DNA of 64,000 nucleotides, from assembly GCF_014133895.1 (NCBI RefSeq), contig NC_050732.1, positions 1-64,000 on the forward strand. Direction: 5' to 3'. Under the pieces are notes generated by a model, which made no database searches, was not told where the DNA came from, and worked only from the letters and a program-made list of their open reading frames with translations. Numbering within the stretch: position 1 is the first letter of the stretch; every line of letters starts with the position of its first letter. This document shows positions 33,174-36,508 of this stretch, piece after piece. Position numbers and translations under genes: made by a program. Source of the DNA: Torulaspora globosa (lineage: Eukaryota; Ascomycota; Saccharomycetes; Saccharomycetales; Saccharomycetaceae).

Positions 33174-33818
33174 TTACTCGGCAAAGTGCTTCAAGATCTC
33201 CTCGGCAGCCTTGATACCAGATACCAGCATAGCACCAAAGGTTGGGCCCATTCTGTTGCAACCAGCCAACTCGGCGACCTCCATACCGGCAAAGTACATC
33301 GAGTCGACGCCCTTGTACTTACCGGAGTTCTTGACCACGTCAGCCTCGGCGTTGTTCATGTCAAGACCCTTCATACCCTTCAACTGCGAGTTCTTGTCGA
33401 TCGACACGATACGCTTGGCGGAGAAAGCGCCGAATGGACCGTCGTGGCCGGTGGTGGACAAAATGACACCATGCTTGGCAGATGGATCACGGGTACCATC
33501 GTTCTTGTAACCAGCAAGTTCGATGACATTAGGGTCCATACAGCTCTGCAGGTCGTGGGCCTGGGTCACCAGCGTCCAGTTGGTCACCACACCGGCGACG
33601 GTGAGCTCGCCGTTGGGGCCGGCAGGTCTGGTCACCAAGTCCTCCACAGCGGTAGCGTTGAAGAACTTCACGTTAGGGAACTGCAACACCTTCGAGGTCA
33701 CGGTCGAGGCGAAAAGCGCAGCGTGCTTAACCACCACGTAGTCTCCCTCATCCTCGAATGGGATCTCCAGCTCCTCCAAGAACAAATGACCTGGCTTTCT
33801 GACGATCATCGCACTCAT
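33174..33818 (-). pseudogene. THI4: THI4 3' fragment (codons 113 to stop)
   Basis: A 214-codon open fragment equal to residues 113-326 of the complete THI4 at 35528-36508, with only two amino-acid differences (DPSA versus DVSK). By eye 28 of 645 bases differ and there are no indels. The homology begins abruptly at 33818 (the ATG of codon 113) and ends at the stop codon; the sequences outside are unrelated. It keeps the sulfur-donor cysteine (SCMDPN) but lacks the GAGSSG dinucleotide-binding motif and the promoter, so it cannot make thiazole. The frame is still open, suggesting recent origin. I interpret it as the native 3' end displaced by insertion of the element to its right. Confidence 0.93.
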
Positions 33819-33895
33819 AAGACTTCCAGGTTGGATCTATGCATTGGATTACGCGTTTTTGGGGTTCTCTATATTAAGAGCTGTGACGCGTCAAT

Positions 33896-33942
33896 TAGCC
33901 GCCGAGCTAGCCGCCCAAATGTTGCATTTCATACTATAAAGG
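33896..33942 (+). promoter_or_regulatory. URS1 (Ume6) sites and TATA box of the nuclease gene
   Basis: TAGCCGCCGA at 33896-33905 is a perfect URS1. TAGCCGCCCA at 33908-33917 matches 9 of 10. TATAAAGG follows at 33935-33942, 70-77 bases before the ATG at 34012. In S. cerevisiae Ume6 at URS1 silences early meiotic genes in growth and activates them with Ime1. Meiosis-timed expression of the nuclease is predicted. Confidence 0.7.
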
Positions 33943-34011
33943 GGGAGAGAATTCTCGATAGGTATTTGGATTAGTAGTCAACAAACCAACATTTCAATGC
34001 ATTAGATAATT

Positions 34012-35388
34012 ATGACCAAGAAAAAGAGCCTTGAAGAGTTCGTTGAAGAGTGCCGTAAGGTGCACGACGACAAATACAATTACTCGATCACAAACTATAC
34101 CAGATGGGACTGCAAAATTGAGTATATCTGCCCAATTCATGGTGTACAGAGTCAAAGAGCCAACGCTCATAGACACGGGAGGGGTTGCAAACTGTGTGGC
34201 AGAGAGAGAACCAGAAAGACTTTCGCCCTCACTACGGAAAAGTTCATCGAAACTTGTAAGAAGAAACATAATAACCGGTACAGTTATCCCAATACTGTAT
34301 ACGTTGATTACGACAGTGCAGTGAAAATCGAGTGTGCGCGGCATGGCGAGTTCCTTCAAATAGCTGGCTGTCATCTTACCGGTAGGGGGTGTCAAAAATG
34401 TGCTGTCTTTAATAAATCCTCGGGCCCTGCCTTAAAGCCTGCTGACTATGATGAGTTCGTCGGACTGTCTATCAAGGTACATGGAGATGTTTATGACTAT
34501 TCCCAGGTCAACTATAAAAAACATTATGTTACTGTCGATATTGTATGCACAGACCACGGCCCTTTCAGATGTACTCCTACTATACATTTGAAGGGTAAAG
34601 GGTGTGCTACCTGTCAGAATTTCGATGCATTTGTCCAGAGGGCAAAATCAATTCATGGTGATAAGTTTCAGTATGACAAGTCAACTTACATTAGGAGCAA
34701 AACAAAGATGCGTATACTTTGCCGGGAGCATGGAGAATTCTGGCAAACCCCAGGAGACCATGCTCGTGTTACTCGTAAAGGGGGTTTTTATTGCCCTTCA
34801 TGTTTTTTAGAGAATAAGCGCCTCACAATCGATGAAGTGAAGGAAAGATCCAGAAATATTCACGGCCTGGCATACAGGTTTGATAAGCTCGTTCTGGGCA
34901 AGAGCCTACAAGAAGAGGCAATATTCTATTGCATAAAATGTGCCAAATACTTTTCTCAAAAGCCCATTAATCATCTTCGAGGCCATGGCTGTTCGTGGTG
35001 CTGTGAATCAAAGCATGAGAAAAAAATTAAAAATTGGCTACAAACCACGGATTATCAATTTGAATCGCAAAAGCGTTTTCCTGATTTACGGTACGAACAA
35101 TCGCTTAGGTGCGATTTCTATCTTGAACAGTTCAATCTTATCATCGAGTTTGACGGGATTCAGCATTTTGAGCCCGTGGAGGCCTGGGGAGGATTTGAGA
35201 AGTTCCTCAGAGTGCAGGCCAGAGATCGCGTGAAAGACGACTACTGCACAGAGAAGCGTATCAACCTTCTCAGGATGAAAGATGGTCAGGACGTCATCCA
35301 AGGAGTTCAAGACCTGATCGAGCTGATCAAGGCCAATGAAACAGGACACGTCCTGCATATGATTTATGGCAGGCTAGCCACTTTCTAG
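34012..35388 (+). CDS. Zinc-knuckle repeat, Vsr-like (EDxHD-type) homing-endonuclease-like protein
   Basis: 458 residues in two parts. Residues 7-332 are five tandem copies of a roughly 60-residue DUF723-like module, each beginning F/V-x-H-D/G-x-x-Y-x-Y and ending with zinc ligands: C40/H43/C59/C62, C108/H111/C127/C130, C179/H182/C198/C201, C237/H240/C261/C264, and C307/C310/C327/C330. Residues 340-440 form a Vsr-like nuclease domain with Asp368 in RCDFYL, and Glu379, Asp381, Gln384 and His385 in IIEFDGIQHF, then AWGGFEK and RDRVKDDYC. This combination is typical of phage and bacterial homing-type endonucleases (I-Bth0305I/EDxHD relatives), not of yeast HO, VDE or WHO proteins, which are LAGLIDADG enzymes. 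The frame is intact with its own promoter. It converges with THI4, 139 bases apart. Family assignment is from motifs; cleavage activity is not shown. Confidence 0.85.
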   Translation: MTKKKSLEEFVEECRKVHDDKYNYSITNYTRWDCKIEYICPIHGVQSQRANAHRHGRGCKLCGRERTRKTFALTTEKFIETCKKKHNNRYSYPNTVYVDYDSAVKIECARHGEFLQIAGCHLTGRGCQKCAVFNKSSGPALKPADYDEFVGLSIKVHGDVYDYSQVNYKKHYVTVDIVCTDHGPFRCTPTIHLKGKGCATCQNFDAFVQRAKSIHGDKFQYDKSTYIRSKTKMRILCREHGEFWQTPGDHARVTRKGGFYCPSCFLENKRLTIDEVKERSRNIHGLAYRFDKLVLGKSLQEEAIFYCIKCAKYFSQKPINHLRGHGCSWCCESKHEKKIKNWLQTTDYQFESQKRFPDLRYEQSLRCDFYLEQFNLIIEFDGIQHFEPVEAWGGFEKFLRVQARDRVKDDYCTEKRINLLRMKDGQDVIQGVQDLIELIKANETGHVLHMIYGRLATF

Positions 35389-35527
35389 TTTTCTAACTAA
35401 ATAAATGCACCTGCTTTTGCTGGTATTTTTTTCAGCCAAGGTTAAAGGAACTTGAGGAAACTTGACAAAAAAGTTGAACGGAACTAGGCATAATAAACGT
35501 TATCTAAAGCGATCTGTACGTAACTAT

Positions 35528-36508
35528 CTACTCGGCAAAATGCTTCAAGATCTCCTCGGCAGCCTTGATACCGGAGACCAACATGGCGCCGAAAGTTGGG
35601 CCCATTCTGTTGCAACCAGCCAACTCGGCGACCTCCATACCGGCAAAGTACATCGAGTCGACGCCCTTGTACTTACCGGAGTTCTTGACCACGTCAGCCT
35701 CGGCGTTGTTCATGTCAAGACCCTTCATACCCTTCAATTGCGAGTTCTTGTCGATCGACACGATACGCTTGGCGGAGAAAGCGCCGAATGGACCGTCGTG
35801 GCCGGTGGTGGACAAGATCACACCGTGCTTCTTGCTCACGTCACGGGTGCCGTCGTTCTTGTAACCAGCAAGTTCGATGACATTAGGGTCCATACAGCTC
35901 TGCAGGTCGTGGGCCTGGGTCACCAGCGTCCAGTTGGTCACCACACCGGCGACGGTGAGCTCGCCGTTGGGGCCGGCAGGTCTGGTCACCAAGTCCTCCA
36001 CAGCGGTAGCGTTGAAGAACTTCACGTTAGGGAACTGCAACACCTTCGAGGTCACAGTCGAGGCGAAAAGCGCAGCGTGCTTAACCACCACGTAGTCTCC
36101 CTCGTCCTCGAATGGGATCTCCAGCTCCTCCAAGAACAAGTGACCTGGCTTTCTGACGATCATCGCACTCATCAACGAACCGGCCAGCCAACTCCCACCT
36201 GCAGGACAGTTGTTAGCCTCGATGATGGTCACGATCAAGTCCGGTCTGTTCTTGGCGATCACATACGCAGCAGAGAGACCCGAAGAACCAGCACCGATGA
36301 TGATGACATCGGAGACTGCGTGCTTGTCGAGGTCCTTGAAGTATCTCGAAGTCATAGCACGTGAGACAGTGGACTCACGGATTGGTGTGAACTTGAAGTC
36401 GGACCAGTCATCGGTCTTGACCACGTCGGATAGCGCATGACGGATGCTTCCGGCGTTCAATTGCAATTGTGCGGCTTCGGTTTGAGTGTTGGTAGCAGTG
36501 GCAGACAT
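35528..36508 (-). CDS. THI4: Thiazole synthase THI4 (complete)
   Basis: 326 residues, identical in length to S. cerevisiae Thi4, from the ATG at 36508; the longer frame starts with TTG. It makes the thiazole half of thiamine from NAD, glycine and its own sulfur, Cys205 (in [10 protein letters not shown]), and so works once per molecule. The GAGSSG motif is at 72-77, GGSWLAG at 104-110 and the C-terminal MGPTFGAM is present. TATAAATA (reverse of 36577-36584) lies about 70 bases upstream. Codons 113-326 are duplicated in the fragment at 33174-33818, and those codons probably come from the inserted element rather than the ancestral gene. Strong expression and repression by thiamine are expected from the family. 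Confidence 0.97.

Follow-up and report, generated by a model that had tools for sequence, protein, structure and literature searches.

The THI4 gene of Torulaspora globosa very likely hosts a homing element that, as judged from its sequence, resembles the WHO elements in replacing the 3′ end of its host gene but has an independent origin and an unrelated nuclease. We analyzed the first 64,000 nt of contig NC_050732.1 (positions 1 to 64,000 of the forward strand; hereafter, the window). The proposed unit would consist of a THI4 3′ end with its 3′ UTR, a convergent nuclease gene, and a displaced THI4 3′ end (Table 1). All three open reading frames described in an earlier note on this DNA (a complete THI4 on the minus strand, the convergent nuclease gene, and a THI4 3′ fragment) were present. 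The complete gene (T1) was the sole full-length THI4 among the matches listed for the T. globosa genome. An ungapped comparison of T1 with the displaced fragment (T2) confirmed the reported arrangement of 645 bp each, offset by exactly 2354 bp, with no indel and about 28 mismatches (28 were counted). The likeness breaks off abruptly at both ends, and the duplication cannot be chance. Most mismatches (22 of 28) were clustered in two stretches (7 at 33219-33240 and 15 at 33462-33498), which match the patches of a different (element-type) THI4 sequence seen at the diagnostic sites described below. The fragment had been said to start exactly at codon 113: the 645-bp match does start at ATG113, but the resemblance to THI4 may extend three codons further upstream, where GGA AGT CTT in T2 and GGT TCG TTG in T1 both encode Gly-Ser-Leu. 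Because of this Gly-Ser-Leu, we placed the joint within codons 110-113.

Table 1. Features of the THI4 locus of T. globosa (positions within the window)
Feature	Position	Strand	Evidence or remark
THI4 host gene T1, 326 aa	35528..36508	-	ORF; PF01946 E=2.7e-96
Nuclease gene, 458 aa, convergent to THI4	34012..35388	+	ORF; CapR/DUF723-like zinc repeats, predicted C-terminal EDxHD/Vsr-type domain
Displaced THI4 3′ end T2, codons 113-326, 214-aa ORF	33174..33818	-	PF01946 E=1.7e-67; native-type, native stop and 3′ UTR
THI4 codons 110-113, putative cut/joint region	36170..36181	-	T2, T3, and T4 start here; putative cleavage
T1 codons 113-315	35564..36172	-	Diagnostic sites native-type, apart from one each at codons 151 and 282
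T1 last ~11 codons and 3′ UTR	35389..35563	-	Element-type from codon 316 or 323; common to T4 and T5, not T2/T3
Nuclease promoter region	33819..34011	+	Conserved in C1 copy; in C8 copy from 33878 on
ACGCGT boxes (n = 2), nuclease promoter	33851-33856, 33886-33891		
URS1-like motif TAGCCGCCGA	33896..33905	+	Second copy with one mismatch at 33908-33917
Right-hand joint GGAAGTCTT, Gly-Ser-Leu, codons 110-112	33819..33827	-	Identical in C1 copy (T3)
Element-type patch in T2, codons 219-231	33462..33500	-	13 diagnostic sites
Element-type patch in T2, codons 305-316	33207..33242	-	8 diagnostic sites
MARVEL-domain gene, downstream THI4 neighbor	32318..33046	+	85%-identical HG537 relative has tag adjoining that of THI4

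Two further open copies of the nuclease were found on other contigs of the genome (C1 and C8), each beside a THI4 3′ piece. These two were 95% and 93% identical to the copy in the window (C6), and all three were open over 458 codons. The THI4 3′ pieces that reach the joint (T2, T3, and T4) all started within codons 110-113; the C1 piece T4 was frameshifted.

The N-terminal part of the nuclease contains repeated zinc domains of the CapR/DUF4379/DUF723 type (six CxxC and four CxxHG motifs), with a phrog_681 match over residues 5-203 and phrog_4605 matches in five stretches. DUF723 is a precomputed domain of P0001 (the C1 copy) and of other relatives; the Pfam search gave no DUF723 match for the window nuclease, P0002 scored under the DUF723 cut-off, and a genome search with PF05265 gave one sub-threshold match and missed all three copies. 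The C-terminal part has a predicted EDxHD/Vsr-like nuclease domain, which matched the 'homing endonuclease' family phrog_9084 (E=2e-25). An alignment of 66 of the 120 listed matches (of 2,211) and the two own-genome copies contained 56 rows of 68 that fill the catalytic block; E336, D368, E379, H385, and D405 were each kept in 50-54 of these 56 and in all eight rows of the yeast group, including the three copies. Four members of that group (P0002, P0003, P0004, and P0007) are metagenome proteins taken as yeast by likeness; P0011 is likewise a metagenome protein. The eight rows formed one branch of the tree, in which 66 of the 68 rows were kept (P0011 and P0024 are absent). Sequence searches of solved structures did not recover I-Bth0305I, which we take to be the type member of EDxHD nucleases. 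The window nuclease shares with it the residue order E-D-x-H-D, for which the available part of PMC12350094 supplies the motif name and the present analysis the residue assignment.

Relatives were found in 946 of 50,697 phage records (in 67 of them a single stretch covers ≥80% of the query) and, with relative P0008 as the query, in IMG/VR viral contigs. The window nuclease had no LAGLIDADG or Hom_end match in Pfam at E ≤ 1, and none of the 15 places listed by a genome search with PF05203 lay at the three nuclease loci. Searches of solved structures gave no significant match (single sequence, RING/CHY zinc-finger protein, E=0.64; profile, AbaSI, E=0.48), and the one NCBIfam match (E=0.059) was far below its cut-off. 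By its predicted domains, the nuclease belongs with the homing endonucleases of phages, and no HO/WHO domain was found in it. The phrog matches and phage relatives, without Hom_end_hint, bear out the earlier description of a phage-like zinc-knuckle/Vsr-like nuclease unrelated to HO/WHO.

In HG537, a second strain of T. globosa, THI4 (HG537_0A08990) and the MARVEL gene (HG537_0A09000) have consecutive locus tags, both with the 1,700,142 bp contig. The tags suggest a THI4-MARVEL neighborhood with no annotated nuclease, that is, an element-free THI4. In Lachancea lanzarotensis, THI4 (LALA0_S06e03400g) and a nuclease (LALA0_S06e03422g) both come with the 784,318 bp contig. Locus tags of this type presumably step by 22, and the pair suggests that the nuclease adjoins THI4 in this species, the linkage that the earlier note had proposed to seek in other fungi. 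Two predicted THI4 fragments, P0171 and P0172, start at codons 113 and 116.

Residues 111/113 of THI4 were Q/F in 108 of 119 aligned rows (two fragments set aside), S/M in four, A/M in four, Q/L in two, and M/Y in one. The combination Q111[S/A] + F113M also occurred in HG537, P0127 (Lachancea 'fantastica'), P0194, and P0221. HG537, Lachancea 'fantastica', and Magnusiomyces were not named among the 120 nuclease matches listed (of 2,211). The combination was rejected as a strong mark of resistance to cutting, since the eight M113 rows include HG537 and the distant P0194 (Magnusiomyces) and P0221; it could serve at most as a weak signature of resistance.

Another reading agrees with the homing interpretation on history and differs on present activity: a former homing element may now be inactive, with a nuclease that has ceased to cut, or may have been domesticated and now serve the host. 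When the three nuclease copies were compared in pairs, dN/dS was 0.78-0.84 (NG86) and 1.02-1.33 (YN00), and values near 1 favor loss of activity, as does the frameshift in T4. All three reading frames have nevertheless stayed open, the five catalytic-block residues are intact throughout the yeast group, and HG537 is without the element by its tags, so the element would not be fixed. We consider an inactive or domesticated element unlikely. At about 0.8 to 1.3, dN/dS was rejected as support for selection on the nuclease copies.

The THI4 sequences were assigned to types at 171 diagnostic sites, with T3 as the reference. At some single diagnostic sites (e.g., codons 282 and 316), T3 may have a change unique to it. 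T4 and T5 represent the substitute 3′ ends and have a 3′ UTR as in T1; T2 (apart from its two element-type patches) and T3 are native, with a native 3′ UTR and downstream sequence. T4 and T5 were 96.2% alike, and both were 79-82% alike to T1/T3 (codons 144-326). In the THI4 trees (52 and 57 rows; frameshifted T4 left out, T5 with approximately three non-THI4 junction residues), T5 grouped with the THI4 P0123 (SH-aLRT 97), and T1, T2, T3, and HG537 formed the other group (SH-aLRT 96). The element thus evidently owns a diverged THI4 3′ end and UTR, with a history separate from that of the native one. A substitute host 3′ end is carried, the old 3′ end is left downstream, and T1 is now a mosaic, which is consistent with later gene conversion or exchange between the two ends. 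The replacement of the THI4 3′ end claimed previously has to be read through this mosaic: the last codons and 3′ UTR are element-type, but codons 113-315 are mostly native, so that T1 is better described as a mosaic of later date than as cleanly replaced.

The nuclease copies with their THI4 pieces could also be debris of transposition or break patching: the nuclease would spread by ectopic double-strand-break repair, the THI4 pieces would be accidental, and no homing into THI4 would occur. The C1 and C8 insertions indeed lie at non-THI4 sites and are patchworks that include C5 and ARO2 pieces and show 2-bp overlaps at two junctions, and they resemble the WHO10 insertions in the available part of PMC7282813. 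The earlier note had expected the nuclease to stay linked to THI4, and two of three copies are ectopic, yet each keeps a THI4 piece. Together with the common start of T2, T3, and T4, the adjoining nuclease and THI4 tags in another genus, and the separate history of the element-type 3′ end, this makes debris quite improbable. Still less credible is that the THI4 3′ end was simply duplicated in tandem and that a nuclease gene without any role was trapped between the copies: T1 and T2 do share their orientation and approximately 96% identity, but chance or simple duplication was rejected because their 3′ UTRs differ (that of T1 is common to the C1 and C8 elements) and three nuclease copies with THI4 pieces exist in the genome, and the grouping of the element-type 3′ end with another THI4 and the tag-adjacent pair in another genus also stand against it. 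The three copies with THI4 pieces, the diverged 3′ end that belongs to the element, and the Lachancea tag linkage agree with the earlier proposal of an independent system of WHO logic in a thiamine gene.

Under the homing interpretation, the cycle would take place in a diploid heterozygous for the element at THI4 (one allele filled, the other empty), probably at meiosis because of the URS1-like motif in the nuclease promoter. The nuclease would cut the empty THI4 near codons 110-113, and repair would use the other chromosome as template and copy in both the nuclease and the THI4 3′ end of the element, with the downstream displaced fragment as the second homology arm. The resulting chimeric THI4 would be functional and should resist cutting, and the old 3′ end would be shifted downstream.

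We take the motif TAGCCGCCGA to be URS1-like, with a meiotic role, and the ACGCGT boxes to be MCB. The URS1-like motif was present in the promoters of all three nuclease copies. Genome matches numbered 128, vs. 15 for a reversed-pattern control; within the 64-kb window the motif was not significantly enriched (5 matches with at most one mismatch against 2.18 expected; 5 or more in 6 of 100 shuffles). It was absent from eight loci around Hom_end_hint/FBA1 places (L027-L033 and L035; L034 lay outside the scan) and is thus not a feature in common with WHO.

WHO elements occur in Torulaspora and Lachancea, with FBA1 as the host gene (Coughlan et al. 2020; PMC7282813, available part, also for the WHO and VDE statements that follow). 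As in WHO, the nuclease gene lies outside the host ORF, a displaced 3′ fragment that starts near the cut or joint lies downstream, T. globosa and Lachancea are among the hosts, and T. globosa has ectopic patchwork copies (WHO10). The element-borne FBA1 3′ end of WHO is 85% identical to the other allele, compared with 79-82% for the THI4 element. The host gene is different, and a CapR/DUF723 plus EDxHD/Vsr nuclease takes the place of the LAGLIDADG/Hint plus zinc-finger enzyme of WHO. Cleavage has been shown for WHO6, whereas we infer it for the THI4 element; strain polymorphism has been shown for WHO, whereas locus tags suggest it here. The nuclease shares its domain plan with phage homing endonucleases that have several ~60-aa CapR/DUF4379/DUF723 zinc domains ahead of a ~100-aa EDxHD/Vsr-like domain (PMC12350094, available part). 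Those enzymes lie in group II introns, whereas the THI4-element nuclease lies in a yeast nuclear genome and comes with a 3′ end of its host gene, with no intron seen. The VDE intein likewise targets a yeast housekeeping gene (VMA1) and homes in diploid cells at meiosis (PMC7282813); unlike VDE, the THI4 element has no splicing element and its nuclease is a separate convergent gene. The element is not of the intein or intron-borne type: the 326-aa THI4 ORF is uninterrupted.

A literature search for THI4 and homing endonucleases found no related paper, as judged from the listing. On the homing interpretation, the THI4 element would be the second 3′-end-replacing homing element known to us and, as far as we know, the first in a eukaryotic nucleus with phage CapR/EDxHD-Vsr nucleases. 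It is probable that 3′-end-replacement homing arose on two or more occasions in the same yeast genera (with a phage-derived CapR/EDxHD-Vsr nuclease in THI4 and the LAGLIDADG nuclease of WHO in FBA1), that it is a general strategy of nuclear parasites and not a peculiarity of the HO lineage, that the THI4 element moves between yeast species, and that an arms race takes place at a deeply conserved motif of THI4. If true, a further system of separate origin, built on a different metabolic gene and a nuclease of unrelated type, would show this homing mode to be convergent and would allow one to ask which host genes suit it. The FBA1 gene of T. globosa is located at C7:163198-164220, and two Hom_end_hint matches lie no more than 3 kb away; the WHO and THI4 systems both appear to be in this one genome, which would make a direct comparison possible.

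T1, the full-length THI4 gene, and T2, a second THI4 3′ end, lie on either side of the nuclease ORF on contig C6, and the coordinates and counts of the earlier note were correct for all three features. In direct comparison, T1 and T2 were offset by 2354 bp and showed 28 mismatches and no indel over 645 bp, with the likeness stopping abruptly at either side. GC content was 55.8% in THI4 vs. 43.9% in the nuclease gene.

Features of the THI4 region on C6 and a nuclease-gene piece on C1.
Feature	Position	Strand	Basis
Second THI4 3′ end (T2)	33174-33818	minus	PF01946
Convergent ORF (nuclease), 458 codons	34012-35388	plus	ORF scan
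Full THI4 gene (T1)	35528-36508	minus	PF01946
Beta-mannosyltransferase-like gene (BMT), upstream of THI4	36973-39123	minus	PF12141
Ser/Thr-rich ORF, 1360 aa, long repeats; by appearance a putative GPI-type cell-wall adhesin	39556-43638	minus	
Inverted 108-bp nuclease-gene piece between T4 and the C1 nuclease; 99% to window 34618-34725	L005 (C1) 4232-4339		

The THI4 3′ ends formed two sequence types. Over codons 144-326, the fragments T4 (C1) and T5 (C8) were 96.2% identical to each other, whereas they were 79-82% identical to T1 and to T3, the second C1 fragment. One version of the stop codon and 3′ UTR start was found in T1, T4, and T5, and another, which runs on into native downstream sequence, in T2 and T3. 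Therefore, the element carries a 3′ end and UTR of its own. T3, apparently a native end with hardly any patches, was used as the native reference at 171 diagnostic sites. At these sites, T1 was native over codons 113-315, apart from one site each at codons 151 and 282; beyond that, starting at codon 316 or 323 and continuing through the 3′ UTR, it was element-type. T2 was native apart from two element-type blocks, one spanning codons 219-231 (13 sites) and the other codons 305-316 (8 sites), and isolated sites at codons 123, 282, and 330. Some of the isolated differences may be changes private to T3. Thus, the replacement of the THI4 3′ end proposed in the earlier note held for the last codons and 3′ UTR of T1, but codons 113-315 were mostly native. 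The simplest reading of this mosaic is that homing would have placed an element-type 3′ end on T1, and that a later exchange between T1 and T2 would have overwritten most of that end, leaving T2 with element-type patches. A protein tree built on the THI4 3′ part placed T5 with the THI4 protein P0123 (SH-aLRT 97), and T1, T2, T3, and the second T. globosa strain, HG537, formed a separate group (96). The 3′ end of the element therefore has a history separate from that of the host gene, which suggests movement between species.

THI4 likeness started at codons 110-113 in T2, T3, and T4, so that a start "exactly at codon 113" may be too narrow, although ATG113 lies within the joint. The bases 5′ of ATG113 were GGA AGT CTT in T2 and T3, GGG TGT CTT in T4, and GGT TCG TTG in T1; T5 started near codon 143-145. 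This common start of three pieces on two contigs is what a site-specific break would be expected to leave, by analogy with FBA1 fragments, which are described as starting close to the WHO cut site (PMC7282813). Two further THI4 proteins, P0171 (start at codon 113) and P0172 (start at codon 116), may represent fragments that other elements displaced.

The genome (9.28 Mb, eight contigs, C6 beginning with the 64-kb window) contains three nuclease copies, all open for 458 codons: C6, C8 (95% identical), and C1 (93%). The T. globosa protein HG536_0A04820, 93% identical to the window nuclease, apparently corresponds to the C1 copy. Among the matches listed in the genome search, full-length THI4 occurred only on C6 and partial THI4 on C6, C1, and C8; a weak match on C3 was judged unrelated. 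The order on C1 was T4, nuclease, T3, a 3′ UTR with the end of the neighboring MARVEL gene (94% identical to C6 32987-33173), and a 688-bp piece 98.8% identical to C5, flanked by a HAD-hydrolase gene and a PX-domain gene (presumably YOR131C and VPS17). The order on C8 was an ARO2 5′ piece (93% identical to C1:464603-465807), nuclease, and T5; the flanks were a U1-zinc-finger gene and, on the opposite side, a 100-aa ORF with no match in a Pfam search, followed by the ATP synthase subunit h gene. Two patch junctions of the C1 and C8 insertions showed two-base overlaps. These patchworks resemble the T. globosa WHO10 insertions, which are described as containing 3′ pieces of the host gene and bits of other genes (PMC7282813).

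Pfam gave only weak matches to the window nuclease (best DUF5889, E = 0.0099, below cut-off). In PHROGs, it matched phage endonuclease families with E values as low as 3e-70, some of which bear the description homing endonuclease or intron encoded nuclease. The N-terminal part carries repeated CxxC and CxxHG motifs, and C-terminal E336, D368, E379, H385, and D405 were each kept in 50-54 of 56 rows and in all eight rows of the yeast group. The same domain plan, CapR/DUF4379/DUF723-like domains with an EDxHD/Vsr-like domain, is described in a report on a large unrecognised homing endonuclease group (PMC12350094). Relatives were found in 946 of 50,697 phage records, all at <60% identity, and an IMG/VR search with the relative P0008 gave 380 stretches, of which 80 were kept. 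In the 66-row nuclease tree, the eight rows taken as yeast formed one branch (100/98), which fits a putative single entry into yeasts followed by spread. The dN/dS among the three copies (0.78-0.84, NG86; 1.02-1.33, YN00) was counted against homing.

In HG537, THI4 (HG537_0A08990) and the MARVEL gene (HG537_0A09000, 85% identical) have consecutive tags, with no annotated nuclease between them, and no HG537 protein was named among the 120 nuclease matches listed of 2,211; HG537 may therefore carry an element-free THI4. The corresponding Lachancea lanzarotensis tags are LALA0_S06e03400g for THI4 and LALA0_S06e03422g for the nuclease (53% identical). In each species, the two tags belong to contigs of equal length, and tag numbering suggests that each pair are neighbors.

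The element appears to work like a WHO element, yet lies outside that family because both the nuclease family and the host gene differ; as the earlier note held, the nuclease is other than HO/WHO and the host gene is other than FBA1. WHO-type elements appear to coexist with it in this genome, because two Hom_end_hint matches lie within 3 kb of FBA1 on C7, and ATG ORFs of 581-1073 aa are present at five further Hom_end_hint loci. At one locus (C3:1001696-1003060), the match lies inside the 1073-aa ORF, which we take to be probably VMA1 with its VDE intein. No link between THI4 and homing was found in the literature searched, and the WHO paper does not use the word THI4 in its main text (PMC7282813). 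We file the element as a putative second, convergent case of 3′-end-replacing homing.

Window THI4 deviated at 6 of 161 positions conserved in ≥90% of rows, and codons 100-122 accounted for five of the six. Q111[S/A] together with F113M, the main change, also occurred in one further strain and in other species, including a Magnusiomyces, where to our knowledge no nuclease is known; for this reason, it may be enzyme variation rather than resistance. P0194 (Magnusiomyces paraingens THI4) and P0221 have Ala111-Met113, as in element-associated THI4, in a motif otherwise deeply conserved; this would point to convergence or to an element not yet known there.

In all three copies, the nuclease is preceded by TAGCCGCCGA, presumably the URS1 site that Ume6 binds at early meiotic genes; 12 bp further on, a second copy with one mismatch follows. 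The motif occurred 128 times in the genome vs. 15 for a reversed-pattern control (approximately 8-fold); in the window alone, enrichment was not clear (five matches at ≤1 mismatch vs. 2.18 expected). The motif was absent from the eight loci scanned around Hom_end_hint and FBA1 places. The nuclease is probably expressed in meiosis. The ARO2 piece adjoining the C8 element contains two more exact URS1-like motifs (L006 2825 and 2866), and the same two occurred at the ARO2 locus proper (L025 2677 and 2718).
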